Assembly (NCBI GenBank): GCA_028687995.1 | Contig: JAQTZA010000002.1 | Span: 124,001 to 188,000 of the forward strand | DNA: 64,000 bases | Direction: 5' to 3' | Source of the DNA: Bacteroidales bacterium | GTDB lineage: Bacteria; Bacteroidota; Bacteroidia; Bacteroidales; UBA7332 | In this document: piece after piece, positions 1,751-7,726 of the stretch | How the letters are laid out: each line of letters opens with the position of its first letter | How positions within the stretch are numbered: position 1 is the stretch's first letter | Notes under the pieces: model-generated | Told to the model about the DNA's origin: nothing | The model's input: the letters and a program-made list of their open reading frames with translations, nothing else | The model's database searches: none | Position numbers and translations under genes: made by a program

Positions 1751-3229
1751 TTAACCTACGATTTTTTTCATGTCTGTCATTGCTTGACGAAGCTCTGCAC
1801 CGATGATTTCGATTGGGTGGTAACGCAATTCGTCGTTCACTGCAATTAATGCTTGGTTGTCAACGCCGTTTCCTTTGCCTTCGCCATACGCTTTACCGAT
1901 CACGTTGGTGTCTATTTTCTTCATAAAGTCAGCCAACAGCGGTTTGCAAGCGTGGTCGAACAAATAGCAACCGTATTCGGCAGTATCAGAGATCACACGG
2001 TTCATTTCGTACAGTTTTTTGCGTGCAATGGTGTTTGCAATCAGTGGAGTTTCGTGGAGTGACTCGTAGTAAGCAGACTCTTCTTTGATTCCCGCTTCGG
2101 TCATGGTTTCGAATGCCAATTCTACGCCGGCTTTCACCATCGCTACCATCAACACACCGTTGTCGAAGTACTCTTGTTCTGAGATTTCAACGTCTCCAGC
2201 AGGAGTTTTTTCGAAGGCAGTTTCGCCAGTCGCTTTACGCCAAGTCAAGAGGTTGATATCGTCGTTTGCCCAGTCTTTCATCATGGTAGATGAGAATTCG
2301 CCAGACATAATGTCGTCCATGTGTTTTTGGAACAATGGGCGCATGATTGTTTTCAACTCTTCGGCCAAACCAAATGCTTTTATTTTAGCAGGATTCGACA
2401 AACGATCCATCATGTTGGTGATTCCACCGTATTTCAACGCTTCGGTGATGGTTTCCCATCCGTATTGAATCAATTTTGAAGCATAGCCAGCGTCGATGCC
2501 TTTTTCGATCATTTTGTCGAAACAAAGAATAGACCCTGTTTGAAGCATTCCGCAAAGAATGGTTTGCTCGCCCATTAAGTCAGATTTCACCTCGGCTACG
2601 AAAGAAGAGTGAAGACATCCTGCACGGTCGCCACCAGTAGCAACAGCATACGCTTTCGCTTGTGCCCAACCTTTACCTTCGGGGTCGTTTTCTGGGTGAA
2701 CAGCCAACAAGGTAGGCACACCGAAACCACGCACATACTCTGCACGTACTTCCGAACCTGGACATTTTGGCGCTACCATAATCACAGTAATATCTTTACG
2801 GATTTGCGTTCCCTCTTCTACGATGTTGAACCCGTGAGAATAAGAGAGCGTAGATCCTTGTTTCATCAACGGCATAACTGTTGCAACTACAGATGTGTGT
2901 TGTTTGTCTGGTGCAAGGTTGATCACCAAATCAGCAGTTGGAATCAATTGCTCGAATGTACCCACTTTGAAACCGTTTTCGGTAGCGTTTACAAAAGAGG
3001 CTCTTTTGCCATCGATAGCTTCTTGACGCAAAGCGTAAGAGATGTCTAACCCAGAATCTCTCATGTTTAAACCTTGGTTCAAACCTTGAGCACCGCAACC
3101 AACGATTACGATTTTTTTACCTTTTAGCGCAGTAACGCCATCAGCAAATTCACTTTTGTCCATGAATTCGCAAACTCCCAATTGATTCAATTGCTCTCTT
3201 AAAGGAAGCGTGTTGAAATAATTTGCCAT
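1751..3229 (-). CDS. ilvC: Ketol-acid reductoisomerase (long, class II form)
   Basis: 492 aa; [24 protein letters not shown] Rossmann motif and [13 protein letters not shown]-terminal duplicated IlvC domain. Confidence 0.97.
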
Positions 3230-3303: not shown

Positions 3304-3831
3304 TTACTGTTTTGCCATTCTTTCTTGCAAAAATTTGCTCAAAATCTCTGACGATGATTTGGTGATTGCAATACGTCCAGAGCGAACAAACTGCATTACT
3401 CCAAATGGTTTGAGAGCTTCGAAAAACGCTTGCGTCTCTTCTGAATGTCCTGTCAGTTGCAATACTGCAAATTGACGTGTCATTTCGAGGAGTTGTGCGT
3501 TGTATTTGCGCACCAATTGCTCCAAGTCAGGATAGTCTAACAACGCATCGGTTGGTACTTTGTAGAGGGCAACCTCTTGATAAATAATCTCGTCATCGGT
3601 GTATGAAAATGCTTTCACTACTTCCACGCGTTTCTCAATTTGCTTCACCACTTTAGCAATGGAATCAGCCGTTGAGTAGGTCGTCAACGTGAATTTATGT
3701 ATGCCTTCAATCGAAGAAGCAGAAACGGTTAATGTTTCGATGTTCATCTGTCTGCGGGTGAAAATATTCGACACCTGACTCAACAAGCCCGGGTGATTTT
3801 CGGAGAAGATGATTAATGTATATAGTTCCAT
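3304..3831 (-). CDS. ilvH: Acetolactate synthase small (regulatory) subunit
   Basis: 175 aa ACT-domain protein: YTLIIFSENHPGLLSQVSNIFTRRQMNIETLTVS; between ilvB and ilvC. Confidence 0.95.
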   Translation of the reverse strand: MELYTLIIFSENHPGLLSQVSNIFTRRQMNIETLTVSASSIEGIHKFTLTTYSTADSIAKVVKQIEKRVEVVKAFSYTDDEIIYQEVALYKVPTDALLDYPDLEQLVRKYNAQLLEMTRQFAVLQLTGHSEETQAFFEALKPFGVMQFVRSGRIAITKSSSEILSKFLQERMAKQ

Positions 3832-3847
3832 AATTTTTTATTGTTTT

Positions 3848-5548
3848 TTATTTATCTCCCATAATCATATTCGAAATGCTTGCTCCAGTTGGAACCATCG
3901 GATAAACCATACCTTTAGTCTCCACATTTACCTCGAGCAAGTAAGCTTCGTCGTCGCTCAACATTTCGGCAATGGCTGCATCCAAATCTTCGCGGTTCGA
4001 AACCAATTGACCTTTAATTCCATACGCTTTCGCAATCATAATGAAATCAGGATTAACCATGTGCGTTTCAGAATAACGTTCGCTGAAGAAGAGTTCTTGC
4101 CATTGACGCACCATTCCAAGGAAGTGGTTGTTGAGGATAATCATCTTCACACCCGTTTTTTCTTGCATAATGGTTCCCAATTCTTGAATGGTCATCTGCA
4201 TTCCACCATCACCTGCAAACATACATACTGTGCGTTCAGGTGCTCCGATTTTAGCTCCAATGGCAGCAGGAAGTCCGAATCCCATCGTTCCCAAACCGCC
4301 AGAAGTGACCATACTGCGCGATTGAGTGTAGTTGAAGTAGCGGGCAGCCATCATCTGATTTTGACCTACATCGGTTACTACAACCGCTTTGTTTTCAGTT
4401 AATTCCGAAATCTTACGGATAACTTCACCCATCGTGATATCTGTTCCTTTTGGTTGAAGTTCAGGTATAATAACCTTTTCTGCCTCAATCTTATTTAACT
4501 CTTCAAACGAAGCAATCCATTCGGTATGTGTAGTAGCGTTCAGTTTCTCAGTAACCAATGCGAGCGTCTCTTTTGCATTACCCAAAACAGCTACATCAGC
4601 TTTTACATTTTTGTTGATTTCGGCAGGGTCGATATCGAAATGAACGATTTTGCACTGTTTTGCATACGTGCTCAAATCACTCGTAACGCGGTCGTCGAAA
4701 CGCATTCCAATCGCGATTAATACGTCGCATTCGTTGGTTTTAAGATTCGGTGCGAGGTTTCCGTGCATACCAAGCATACCTTTGTTTAACGGATGCTCAG
4801 TTGGCAATGCTGATGAACCCAATAGCGTCCATCCTGCAGGAATATTTGCTTTTTCAAGAAATGCTGCCAACTCTTTTTCTGCACTACCTAAGATAACACC
4901 TTGACCAACCAATGCAAATGGTTTCTTTGCTGAATTAATTAAAGCAGCTGCATCTTCAATGGCTTGTGGTTCAATCGCAGGAGTTGGAATAAAGCTGCGA
5001 ATAAAGTTGCACTTTTCGTATTTATATTCAAATTTCTGGATTTGAGCATTTTTTGCAAAGTCAATCACAACAGGGCCTGGACGACCTTCGCGAGCAATGT
5101 AGAATGCACGTGAAATTGCCCAAGGAATCTCCTCCGGTTTGCGGATTTGATAGCTCCATTTGGTGATTGGTTGCGTGATACCGATTACGTCTGTCTCTTG
5201 GAAAGCATCCGTACCTAAAAGAGCTGCACCTACTTGTCCGATAATAACCACCATCGGTGTGCTATCAATCATTGCATCGGCAATACCAGTGATGGCATTG
5301 GTTGCTGCAGGACCTGATGTGACCAAACAAACGCCAGTTTTTCCGCTAACACGAGCGTAGCCCTGTGCTGCATGAGTTGCACCTTGTTCGTGACGAACGA
5401 GTACGTGACGAATCGTGTCGTGATGGTCGTGAAGTGCGTCGTAAACTGGCATGATTGCACCGCCAGGATATCCGAACATGGTATCAACGCCTTCTTCTAT
5501 AAGTGAACGCATCAAAGCTTCTGCGCCTGTAATTAATTCTGTGCTCAT
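3848..5548 (-). CDS. ilvB: Acetolactate synthase large subunit
   Basis: 566 aa ThDP enzyme: ITGAEALMRSLIEEGVDTMFGYPGGAIMPVYDAL, GDGGMQMTIQELGT. Confidence 0.97.
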   Translation of the reverse strand: MSTELITGAEALMRSLIEEGVDTMFGYPGGAIMPVYDALHDHHDTIRHVLVRHEQGATHAAQGYARVSGKTGVCLVTSGPAATNAITGIADAMIDSTPMVVIIGQVGAALLGTDAFQETDVIGITQPITKWSYQIRKPEEIPWAISRAFYIAREGRPGPVVIDFAKNAQIQKFEYKYEKCNFIRSFIPTPAIEPQAIEDAAALINSAKKPFALVGQGVILGSAEKELAAFLEKANIPAGWTLLGSSALPTEHPLNKGMLGMHGNLAPNLKTNECDVLIAIGMRFDDRVTSDLSTYAKQCKIVHFDIDPAEINKNVKADVAVLGNAKETLALVTEKLNATTHTEWIASFEELNKIEAEKVIIPELQPKGTDITMGEVIRKISELTENKAVVVTDVGQNQMMAARYFNYTQSRSMVTSGGLGTMGFGLPAAIGAKIGAPERTVCMFAGDGGMQMTIQELGTIMQEKTGVKMIILNNHFLGMVRQWQELFFSERYSETHMVNPDFIMIAKAYGIKGQLVSNREDLDAAIAEMLSDDEAYLLEVNVETKGMVYPMVPTGASISNMIMGDK

Positions 5549-5651: not shown

Positions 5652-7481
5652 TTAATCAATTAATCTGACTGCTCCTAAATCTGCTGAACTGACCATGCTA
5701 GCATAAGCTTTTAGCGCTTTCGATATGTAGCGTTCGCGTCCTTCGGCTTTAAAGGCTTCGTTGCCTTTGGCAATTTCTGCAGCACGTCTGTCTTCTAATT
5801 CGGCTTCGCTGACCAACACATTGATGCTGCGTTCTGGAATGTTGATTTCAATTACGTCTCCATCTTTGAGCAAGCCAATATTTCCACCGGCAGCTGCTTC
5901 GGGAGAAACGTGTCCGATGGATAAACCAGAAGTTCCACCAGAGAATCGTCCGTCGGTAATTAACGCACACTCTTTGCCCAAATGTTTCGATTTGATGTAC
6001 GAAGTTGGGTAGAGCATTTCTTGCATTCCCGGTCCACCTTTTGGTCCTTCGTGTGTGATAACCACCACATCGCCTGAGACTACTTTGTCTCTCAAAATAC
6101 CATCGCAAGCAGCATCCTGAGAATTAAAAACTTTAGCTGTTCCTTTAAAAATAAATATCTTTTCATCGACACCTGCGGTTTTTACCACGCAGCCGTTTTG
6201 AGCTATATTTCCAAACAGAATTGCGAGTCCGCCATCTTTCGAGTAAGCATTTTCGATGCTACGGATACACCCTTTTTCGCGGTCAGTGTCTAATTCTTTG
6301 TAATACTCTTCTTGCGAACCCATCACCAGGTTGAAGCGGTGAGCTGGTGCGCTTTTCCATTTGATTTCTGCCTCTTTCGAAAGATTTCCTTCTGACAGGC
6401 TATATTTGTCAATCGCTTGTTTCAATGTCAATCCATCGGCTCGTTTCACGTTAGTGTCAAGTAATCCACCTTTTGCTAATTCACCCAGAATGGAGAGGAT
6501 TCCTCCCGCACGGTTTACCTCTTGAATGTGGTAATGTGAGTTTGGTGCAACTTTACAAAGAACAGGAGTTTTACGCGAAAGTTGATCGATATCGCTCATT
6601 GTGAAATCGACACCAGCCTCGTGAGCAATAGCCAAAATGTGCAAAACTGTATTCGTTGAACCGCCCATTGCGATATCTAACGTCATGGAATTCATAAAGA
6701 CCTGACGTGTGGCAATTGTGCGTGGCAAAACAGAATCGTCGCCATCTTGGTAATATTTGTATGCGTTTTCTACGATTAGTTTCGCAGCATCAGAGAACAA
6801 TCTTTTACGGTTGGCGTGAGTGGCCACAATTGTTCCATTGCCAGGAAGAGCCAATCCAAGGGCTTCGTTAAGACAGTTCATCGAGTTTGCGGTAAACATT
6901 CCCGAGCAAGAGCCACACGTAGGACAAGCTGCTGCTTCTACTTTCGCTATTTGCGCATCGCTGATTGAGCTGTCGGCTGCTTCTACCATGGCATCAACCA
7001 AATCGAGTGAACGACCATCGAGTTCGCCAGCTTCCATTGGGCCACCAGAAACAAAGATGGCAGGAATATTCAAACGCATGGCTGCCATCAACATTCCCGG
7101 AGTGATTTTGTCACAATTCGAGATGCAAACCATGGCATCCGCTTTGTGTGCATTCACCATGTATTCAACGCTATCTGCAATCAAATCGCGCGATGGGAGC
7201 GAATACAACATTCCGTCGTGTCCCATGGCAATTCCGTCGTCGATGGCGATCGTGTTGAATTCGGCTGCAAAACAGCCTAATTTTTCGATTTCTGCCTTTA
7301 CCTGTTGTCCTATATCGTGAAGGTGAACGTGACCAGGAACGAACTGGGTGAATGAGTTCACAATGGCAATAATTGGTTTGCCTAATTGCTCGTCAGTCAT
7401 ACCGTTGGCTTTCCAAAGAGCACGCGCTCCTGCCATCCGTCTGCCCTGTGTGCTGGTTGCACTTCTGAATGATTTTGCCAT
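5652..7481 (-). CDS. ilvD: Dihydroxy-acid dehydratase
   Basis: 609 aa: [47 protein letters not shown]. Confidence 0.97.
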
Positions 7482-7544
7482 ATATATTTGTTTAAAAAAG
7501 CCTGAGTAAAATTGTCTGCAAAAGTAGTGATTATTTATGAAAAA

Positions 7545-7570
7545 AGCCTTTCTCTGTTGGGAGAAAGGCT
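7545..7570 (-). terminator. Attenuator terminator upstream of ilvD
   Basis: RNA AGCCUUUCUC-CCAACA-GAGAAAGGCU followed by UUUUUC. Confidence 0.9.
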
Positions 7571-7594
7571 ATCTGATATTTTAATATCGATGTT

Positions 7595-7664
7595 CAACTA
7601 CATACCTTTCTCACTTGCCCTCGTTCACCACGACGACCACACTGACTAAAGATGTAAGTAGTTG
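7595..7664 (-). promoter_or_regulatory. ilv attenuator protector/antiterminator segments
   Basis: Segment 1 (7654-7664) pairs 10 of 11 with segment 2 (7595-7605); GAGAAAGG (7605-7612) is complementary to CCUUUCUC of the terminator 5' arm (7561-7568). Confidence 0.85.
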
Positions 7665-7673
7665 ACTTTTCAT
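7611..7673 (-). CDS. ilv operon leader peptide, MKSQLLTSLVSVVVVVNEGK
   Basis: 20 codons, ATG...TGA; 3 Leu and 6 Val codons, including five consecutive Val; precedes a terminator and ilvD. Confidence 0.88.
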   Translation of the reverse strand: MKSQLLTSLVSVVVVVNEGK

Positions 7674-7693: not shown

Positions 7694-7726
7694 CAAAGTT
7701 AAAGATAAATTCTATTTATACAAAAA
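7694..7726 (-). promoter_or_regulatory. Bacteroidetes-type promoter for the ilv leader/operon
   Basis: Minus strand TTTTTG - 19 nt - TAACTTTG, matching -33 TTG / -7 TAnnTTTG, just upstream of the leader ATG. Confidence 0.75.

Follow-up and report, generated by a model that had tools for sequence, protein, structure and literature searches.

The ilvDBHC operon of this Bacteroidales bacterium is very probably controlled by a ribosome-mediated transcription attenuator, as judged from the comparison of ilvD upstream regions and from RNA folding. On the minus strand of the window, i.e., the whole 64,000-nt stretch of DNA analyzed here, we found in succession a promoter, a leader ORF, an antiterminator arm lying on the leader stop codon, a terminator, and the genes ilvD-ilvB-ilvH-ilvC. 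All sequence-testable defining features of a trp/ilv-type attenuator are present, namely an ORF with codons for the pathway products, a terminator, an antiterminator exclusive with it, and a protector helix over the control codons, while the block by a ribosome at the stop codon and its release upon stalling were recovered as geometry and calculation. The attenuator is real and of the classical kind; what is new is the example rather than the kind, and it has no entry in Rfam.

Promoter, leader ORF and operon layout

The leader ORF (MKSQLLTSLVSVVVVVNEGK; 7611–7673, minus strand, as are all features of the window described below) encodes 20 residues, including three Leu (codons 5, 6, and 9) and six Val (codons 10 and 12–16) but no Ile, with GTC and GTG as the only Val codons. 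Upstream of it lie a −7 element, TAACTTTG (7694–7701), which follows the Bacteroidetes motif TAnnTTTG and is kept in relatives, and, 19 nt from the latter, a −33 element seen in the sequence as TTTTTG (7721–7726) and judged against the Bacteroidetes promoter consensus. By its sequence, this is a good Bacteroidetes-type promoter, and the position of the motif would set the start of RNA polymerase ~15–20 nt upstream of the leader ATG. The first structural gene, ilvD (dihydroxy-acid dehydratase, 5652–7481), was identified from both its sequence and its relatives, and the names of ilvB (acetolactate synthase large subunit, 3848–5548), ilvH/ilvN (acetolactate synthase small subunit, 3304–3831), and ilvC (ketol-acid reductoisomerase, 1751–3229) are readings of the sequence.

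A further TAnnTTTG motif, TACTTTTG (7519–7526), is located between the terminator and ilvD, where it might act as an additional promoter from which transcription would bypass the attenuator, and motifs of this type also occur 3' of the terminator in both same-genus genomes. We do not claim an internal promoter at 7526–7519: the motif appears in 8 of 85 post-terminator spacers, which is not above chance, and its −33 element is poor.

Alternative RNA helices in the leader region

Segment 1 (CAACUACUUAC, 7654–7664), the 5' arm of the protector, overlaps the Leu5–Leu6 codons and pairs at 10 of 11 positions with segment 2b (GUAUGUAGUUG, 7595–7605), an interaction seen in the sequence and in the fold, favored by the swap test reported below, and reaching a shuffle p of ~0.01 in the window. 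Segment 2 (GAGAAAGG, 7605–7612), the antiterminator 5' arm, overlaps the leader stop codon UGA (7613–7611) and is perfectly complementary to segment 3 (CCUUUCUC, 7568–7561), which serves both as the antiterminator 3' arm and as the terminator 5' arm. A perfect 8-mer complement of this arm arose in ~0.5% of shuffles of the leader-region composition. Antiterminator and terminator are mutually exclusive, since segment 3 is common to both. The intrinsic terminator (7540–7570), evident from sequence, fold, and covariation, combines a hairpin at 7570–7545 with a six-U tract at 7545–7540, and a small hairpin (GAUAUUAAAAUAUC, 7575–7588), seen in the sequence and fold of the window, separates segments 2 and 3.

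The initial annotation had already described the minus-strand ORF at 7673–7611, the 10-of-11 pairing of 7654–7664 with 7595–7605, the full complementarity of 7605–7612 to the terminator 5' arm, a terminator at 7545–7570 ending in a U-tract, and the overlap of the antiterminator arm with the leader TGA. The ORF, the pairing, and the complementarity are all present as described, down to the base, and both the terminator and the overlap were confirmed. RNA folding, proposed there as a check, yielded a minimum free energy (MFE) of −43.2 kcal/mol (z = −5.74), a stability attained by none of 200 shuffles. In the MFE structure, the protector hairpin additionally pairs much of GAGAAAGG with leader bases near UCUUU, so that the antiterminator arm would be hidden directly.

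Conservation and covariation across Bacteroidales

At 110 Bacteroidales ilvD loci, we inspected the 420 nt upstream of the start codon. Branched-chain-rich leader candidates were found in 92, and 85 of these 92 had a terminator as well. The antiterminator arm was positioned on the leader stop codon in 75 of the 85, i.e., the stretch with the best complementarity to the terminator 5' arm begins at −5 to +3 of the stop-codon end. The outliers are mostly leaders with a stop codon some 20–30 nt further on, such that the ribosome would read through the antiterminator arm; in loci L003, L005, L006, and L048, with the leader stop ~20–30 nt past the arm, the latter would be translated, which leaves the logic unchanged and differs in the position of the stop. 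In 76 of 85 loci, the 60 nt preceding the leader ATG contained the promoter signature TAnnTTYG, whereas a control stretch contained it in 4 of 85. Whole genomes provided a second set of 95 ilvD loci, which overlaps with the first; 81 of these had a leader and terminator, and the pair was not detected in the other 14 upstream regions. Phylum-wide, ilvD upstream regions offered sparse candidates only; in five loci of other Bacteroidota (L119, L120, L122, L140, and L143), Ile/Val-rich short ORFs and terminators of different make precede ilvD. This comparison indicates that the attenuator is a deeply conserved family in Bacteroidales.

Covariation was counted on alignment A2, comprising 45 sequences. 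In the antiterminator helix (2:3), 92.2% of cells were paired and five pairs had changed on both sides, with a covariation score of 0.208 versus 0.131 in shuffled alignments (0/500) and at most 0.124 in slid controls. The terminator helix (3:4) was paired in 94.0% of cells, with eight pairs and a score of 0.321 versus 0.195 when shuffled (0/500). Arm variants included GAAUGG with CCAUUC, GGGAGGGCUG with CAGCCCUCC, and AAUCGGUA with UGCCGAUU. RNAalifold on A2 displayed the terminator alone, as expected for mutually exclusive helices, and the helices were therefore counted one at a time. In a swap test on 74 loci, native partners outperformed swapped ones for 2:3 (p = 3e-12), 3:4 (p = 2e-11), and 1:2 (p = 9e-11), values that are optimistic given that the sequences are related. 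The window's own 2:3 pair ranks poorly in this test because its arms are the commonest version in the order. Support for the protector (1:2), whose pairing register varies between loci, comes from the fold, the swap test, and footprint-constrained folding. The covariation search upstream of ilvD suggested in the initial annotation thus returned a conserved leader ORF together with covarying 2:3 and 3:4 helices.

Predicted switching by ribosome position

We folded the leader under the constraint of a simple ribosome footprint, on a transcript cut off short of the terminator 3' arm (segment 4). Without a ribosome, the antiterminator had a probability of 0.02. This value was 1.00 when the A site was placed at Leu5, Leu6, or Leu9, 0.98 at Val12 or Val13, and 0.47 at Val16 with the footprint used, and it fell to 0.00 with the ribosome at the stop codon. 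These calculations agree with the earlier proposal that a ribosome finishing the peptide would cover the antiterminator arm and that stalling would free it. With the full terminator present, the terminator beat the antiterminator at equilibrium in every ribosome state, so the switch would depend on co-transcriptional kinetics, that is, on what forms first. The classical attenuation model likewise assumes such kinetics.

On this basis, in an untranslated leader segment 1 would pair with segment 2, the antiterminator arm would be hidden, and the terminator would stop transcription. A shortage of charged Leu- or Val-tRNA is predicted to stall the ribosome at Leu5/6/9 or Val10–16, where it would keep segment 1 from protector pairing; GAGAAAGG could then pair with CCUUUCUC while the terminator 3' arm is still to be synthesized, and transcription would continue into ilvD. 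Under ample supply, the ribosome would reach the UGA at 7613–7611 and cover GAGAAAGG, and the terminator would form. We infer stalling, termination, and the amino-acid response in the cell from this model.

Alternative explanations

The strong hairpin and a tRNA gene upstream of the leader on the same strand would also suit a constitutive terminator beside a small ORF, which either limits ilvD or ends the upstream tRNA transcript with no amino-acid sensing. This reading is very improbable: the leaders abound in precisely those amino acids that the pathway produces, with biased codons, and the antiterminator arm covaries and keeps its place on the leader stop codon among relatives. A terminator serving the tRNA was rejected, as this gene has its own terminator-like hairpin and T-run (7853–7825) ahead of the leader promoter. 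Alternative helices with a terminator are also a hallmark of riboswitches, and the same helices could in principle belong to a ligand-binding riboswitch or to an attenuator governed by an RNA-binding repressor, the ORF being incidental. It is extremely unlikely that this is the case, since the leader varies in length and sequence among relatives yet keeps its Ile/Leu/Val content, no conserved aptamer-like core was seen beyond the arms, and ribosome position alone yields the switch in footprint-constrained folding. Identity with a riboswitch or a known Rfam leader was rejected, because the ilvD element matched no Rfam family at the gathering threshold, leader families and Bacteroid-trp included, and lax matches scored far below the gathering scores.

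Roles in trans, or an ORF that mainly boosts ilvD translation by reinitiation, have been proposed for some leader genes, the reinitiation described being over short distances (PMC4833913, PMC7298713). There is scarcely any chance that they account for this leader, whose stop codon is separated from the ilvD start by 129 nt that include the terminator, and whose peptide sequence is not conserved among relatives beyond its ILV content. Together, conservation, covariation, the swap test, the promoter, and footprint-constrained folding support the classical trp/ilv-type reading, which the initial annotation had also put forward.

Codon choice in the leaders

Codon usage in the 85 pooled leaders was compared with that of the ilvD genes they precede. 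Val is encoded in the leaders by GTC in 52% of cases (15% in ilvD) and by GTG in 36%; Leu by CTA in 23% (4% in ilvD) and by CTC in 26% (13% in ilvD); and Ile by ATT in 73% (42% in ilvD). In leuA leaders, CTA and ATT account for 33% and 77%, respectively. GTC is favored yet ATC is avoided, so a simple GC3 effect does not explain the direction of this bias. Such a pattern fits the view that particular synonymous codons are employed in attenuators, and the preference for GTC, CTA, and ATT would allow the selective-charging theory of attenuator codons to be tested outside Proteobacteria (PMC1183508).

Isoleucine route and the missing Ile codons

From the absence of Ile codons, the initial annotation had concluded that the leader senses Val and Leu only; this holds for the codons present, to which a likely reason can be added. 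Threonine deaminase (ilvA) was not above background in the genome (best score 55.9 bits versus a cut-off of 378.75), and the best match to the ilvA model is a gene of 312 residues whose sequence suggests a cysteine synthase. The gene closest to the (R)-citramalate synthase CimA scored 668 bits, not reaching the cut-off of 950 of the Leptospira model, and adjoins leuD in a leuA-leuC-...-leuD-cimA cluster. Upstream of leuA, this cluster has its own attenuator-like leader, MNALTTNILLLGIIILLRKSVGSEFSV (L111:1300–1491; G000:C26:215035–215181), with Leu and Ile codons, an antiterminator, and a terminator. The ilvD leader thus likely lacks Ile codons because the Ile-committing cimA-like gene belongs to a separately attenuated leu operon, and Ile is likely sensed there, through the Leu- and Ile-rich leader.

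Among relatives, Ile/Leu/Val codons total 65/92/14 in leuA leaders and 295/291/339 in ilvD leaders. In tests that were post hoc, devised after the first examples on partly the same genomes and with phylogeny only partly controlled, the mean Ile fraction of ilvD leaders was 0.25 where the genome had cimA but lacked a threonine-deaminase hit versus 0.45 where it had ilvA and no cimA; family means were 0.28 (cimA without ilvA, 27 families) versus 0.46 (ilvA only, 10 families; p = 0.003), and 0.45 for ilvD clusters containing ilvA or cimA (11 families) versus 0.29 for the others (34 families; p = 0.007); leuA leaders gave 0.43 with linked cimA (n = 11) versus 0.22 when unlinked (n = 5; p = 0.04). 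The leuA leader of genome G006 is a clear exception to the latter trend, and several ilvD leaders keep many Ile codons despite the presence of cimA and no ilvA being found. On balance, we lean slightly towards the view that the amino acids encoded in branched-chain leaders of Bacteroidales vary with how the cell commits to isoleucine and where it does so: with cimA in the leu operon, Ile codons would be frequent in the leu leader and become fewer in the ilvD leader, which has none in this genome, and with ilvA or cimA in the ilvD cluster, the ilvD leader would gain them. If true, leader codons are a readable record of pathway wiring, and a 20-codon ORF would provide a checkable prediction of it.

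Other attenuator-like leaders in the same genome

In the same genome, hisG is preceded by a leader, MKLYTSHHGHHHFLQ, and a terminator (minus strand, L144), with an antiterminator forming in the masked fold. The trp genes are likewise preceded by a leader, MNLTSVNKFWWWHLQLQQS, and a terminator (minus strand, L146, upstream of trpB); there, the geometry differs slightly, in that GTCGTGAG around the stop codon matches CTCACGAC of the loop and 3' arm of the terminator. The Rfam library returned no match to the his or trp leaders either, and its Bacteroid-trp model misses the trp leader. Beyond leuA, the low-scoring R1 hits at other places in the genome lacked an evident amino-acid operon downstream, except for one just upstream of trp. 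Given these candidates for leu, his, and trp, the organism appears to use attenuation as a general strategy.

Ribosome-mediated attenuation needs transcription-translation coupling, and Shine-Dalgarno sequences are little used in Bacteroidetes. The conserved ilvD attenuator and the leu, his, and trp candidates would offer a direct way to test coupling in such a phylum. Their leader peptides are so short that they escape usual gene calling, and the family is absent from Rfam.

Comparison with known systems

Two comparative surveys, by Vitreschak in 2004 and Lopatovskaya in 2010, reportedly may already predict some Bacteroidetes attenuators. Within the phylum, leader-peptide attenuation with short ORFs before amino-acid operons has been predicted in Flavobacterium psychrophilum (PMC9723704), and leader-like sORFs in 5'UTRs were noted in Bacteroides thetaiotaomicron (PMC7366714). 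These cases share with ours the phylum and the short ORFs in long 5'UTRs, but their main texts neither name ilvD nor show the switch (PMC9723704, PMC7366714). Bacteroid-trp RNA (RF01692, PMC2864571) is similarly a candidate cis-regulatory RNA of an amino-acid operon in Bacteroidetes, but it concerns Trp, and its Rfam model does not match the ilvD element. The ilvD (WRC-18-2) motif also lies upstream of ilvD, in some cases with terminators, but is a weak riboswitch candidate confined to Veillonella (PMC8632094). Actinobacterial ilvB leaders, including those of Corynebacterium, resemble the present element in having a short Ile/Val/Leu ORF and a terminator before an ilv operon, and differ from it in phylum, operon order, and RNA arrangement (PMC1262725, PMC11857589, PMC10272879). 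Changes of leader codons in Streptomyces coelicolor were without effect (PMC1262725).

The ilvGMEDA and leu operons are listed as attenuation-controlled (PMC1183508). The present element is like their E. coli leaders, ilvL and leuL, in its ribosome-mediated attenuation and in leader codons that match the pathway products. E. coli ilvL has Ile codons and the ilvGMEDA operon contains ilvA, whereas the operon described here lacks ilvA and its leader lacks Ile. The E. coli ilvBN attenuator encodes the leader peptide IvbL, in which Val and Leu codons occur but Ile codons do not. Both elements thus combine a multivalent Val/Leu leader devoid of Ile, protector, antiterminator, and terminator helices, and a terminator ahead of the structural genes; unlike ilvBN, the ilvDBHC element has a Bacteroidetes promoter, places its antiterminator arm on the leader stop codon, and precedes a different operon. 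By analogy of codon content, the attenuator of ilvDBHC is nearest to the E. coli ilvBN leader.
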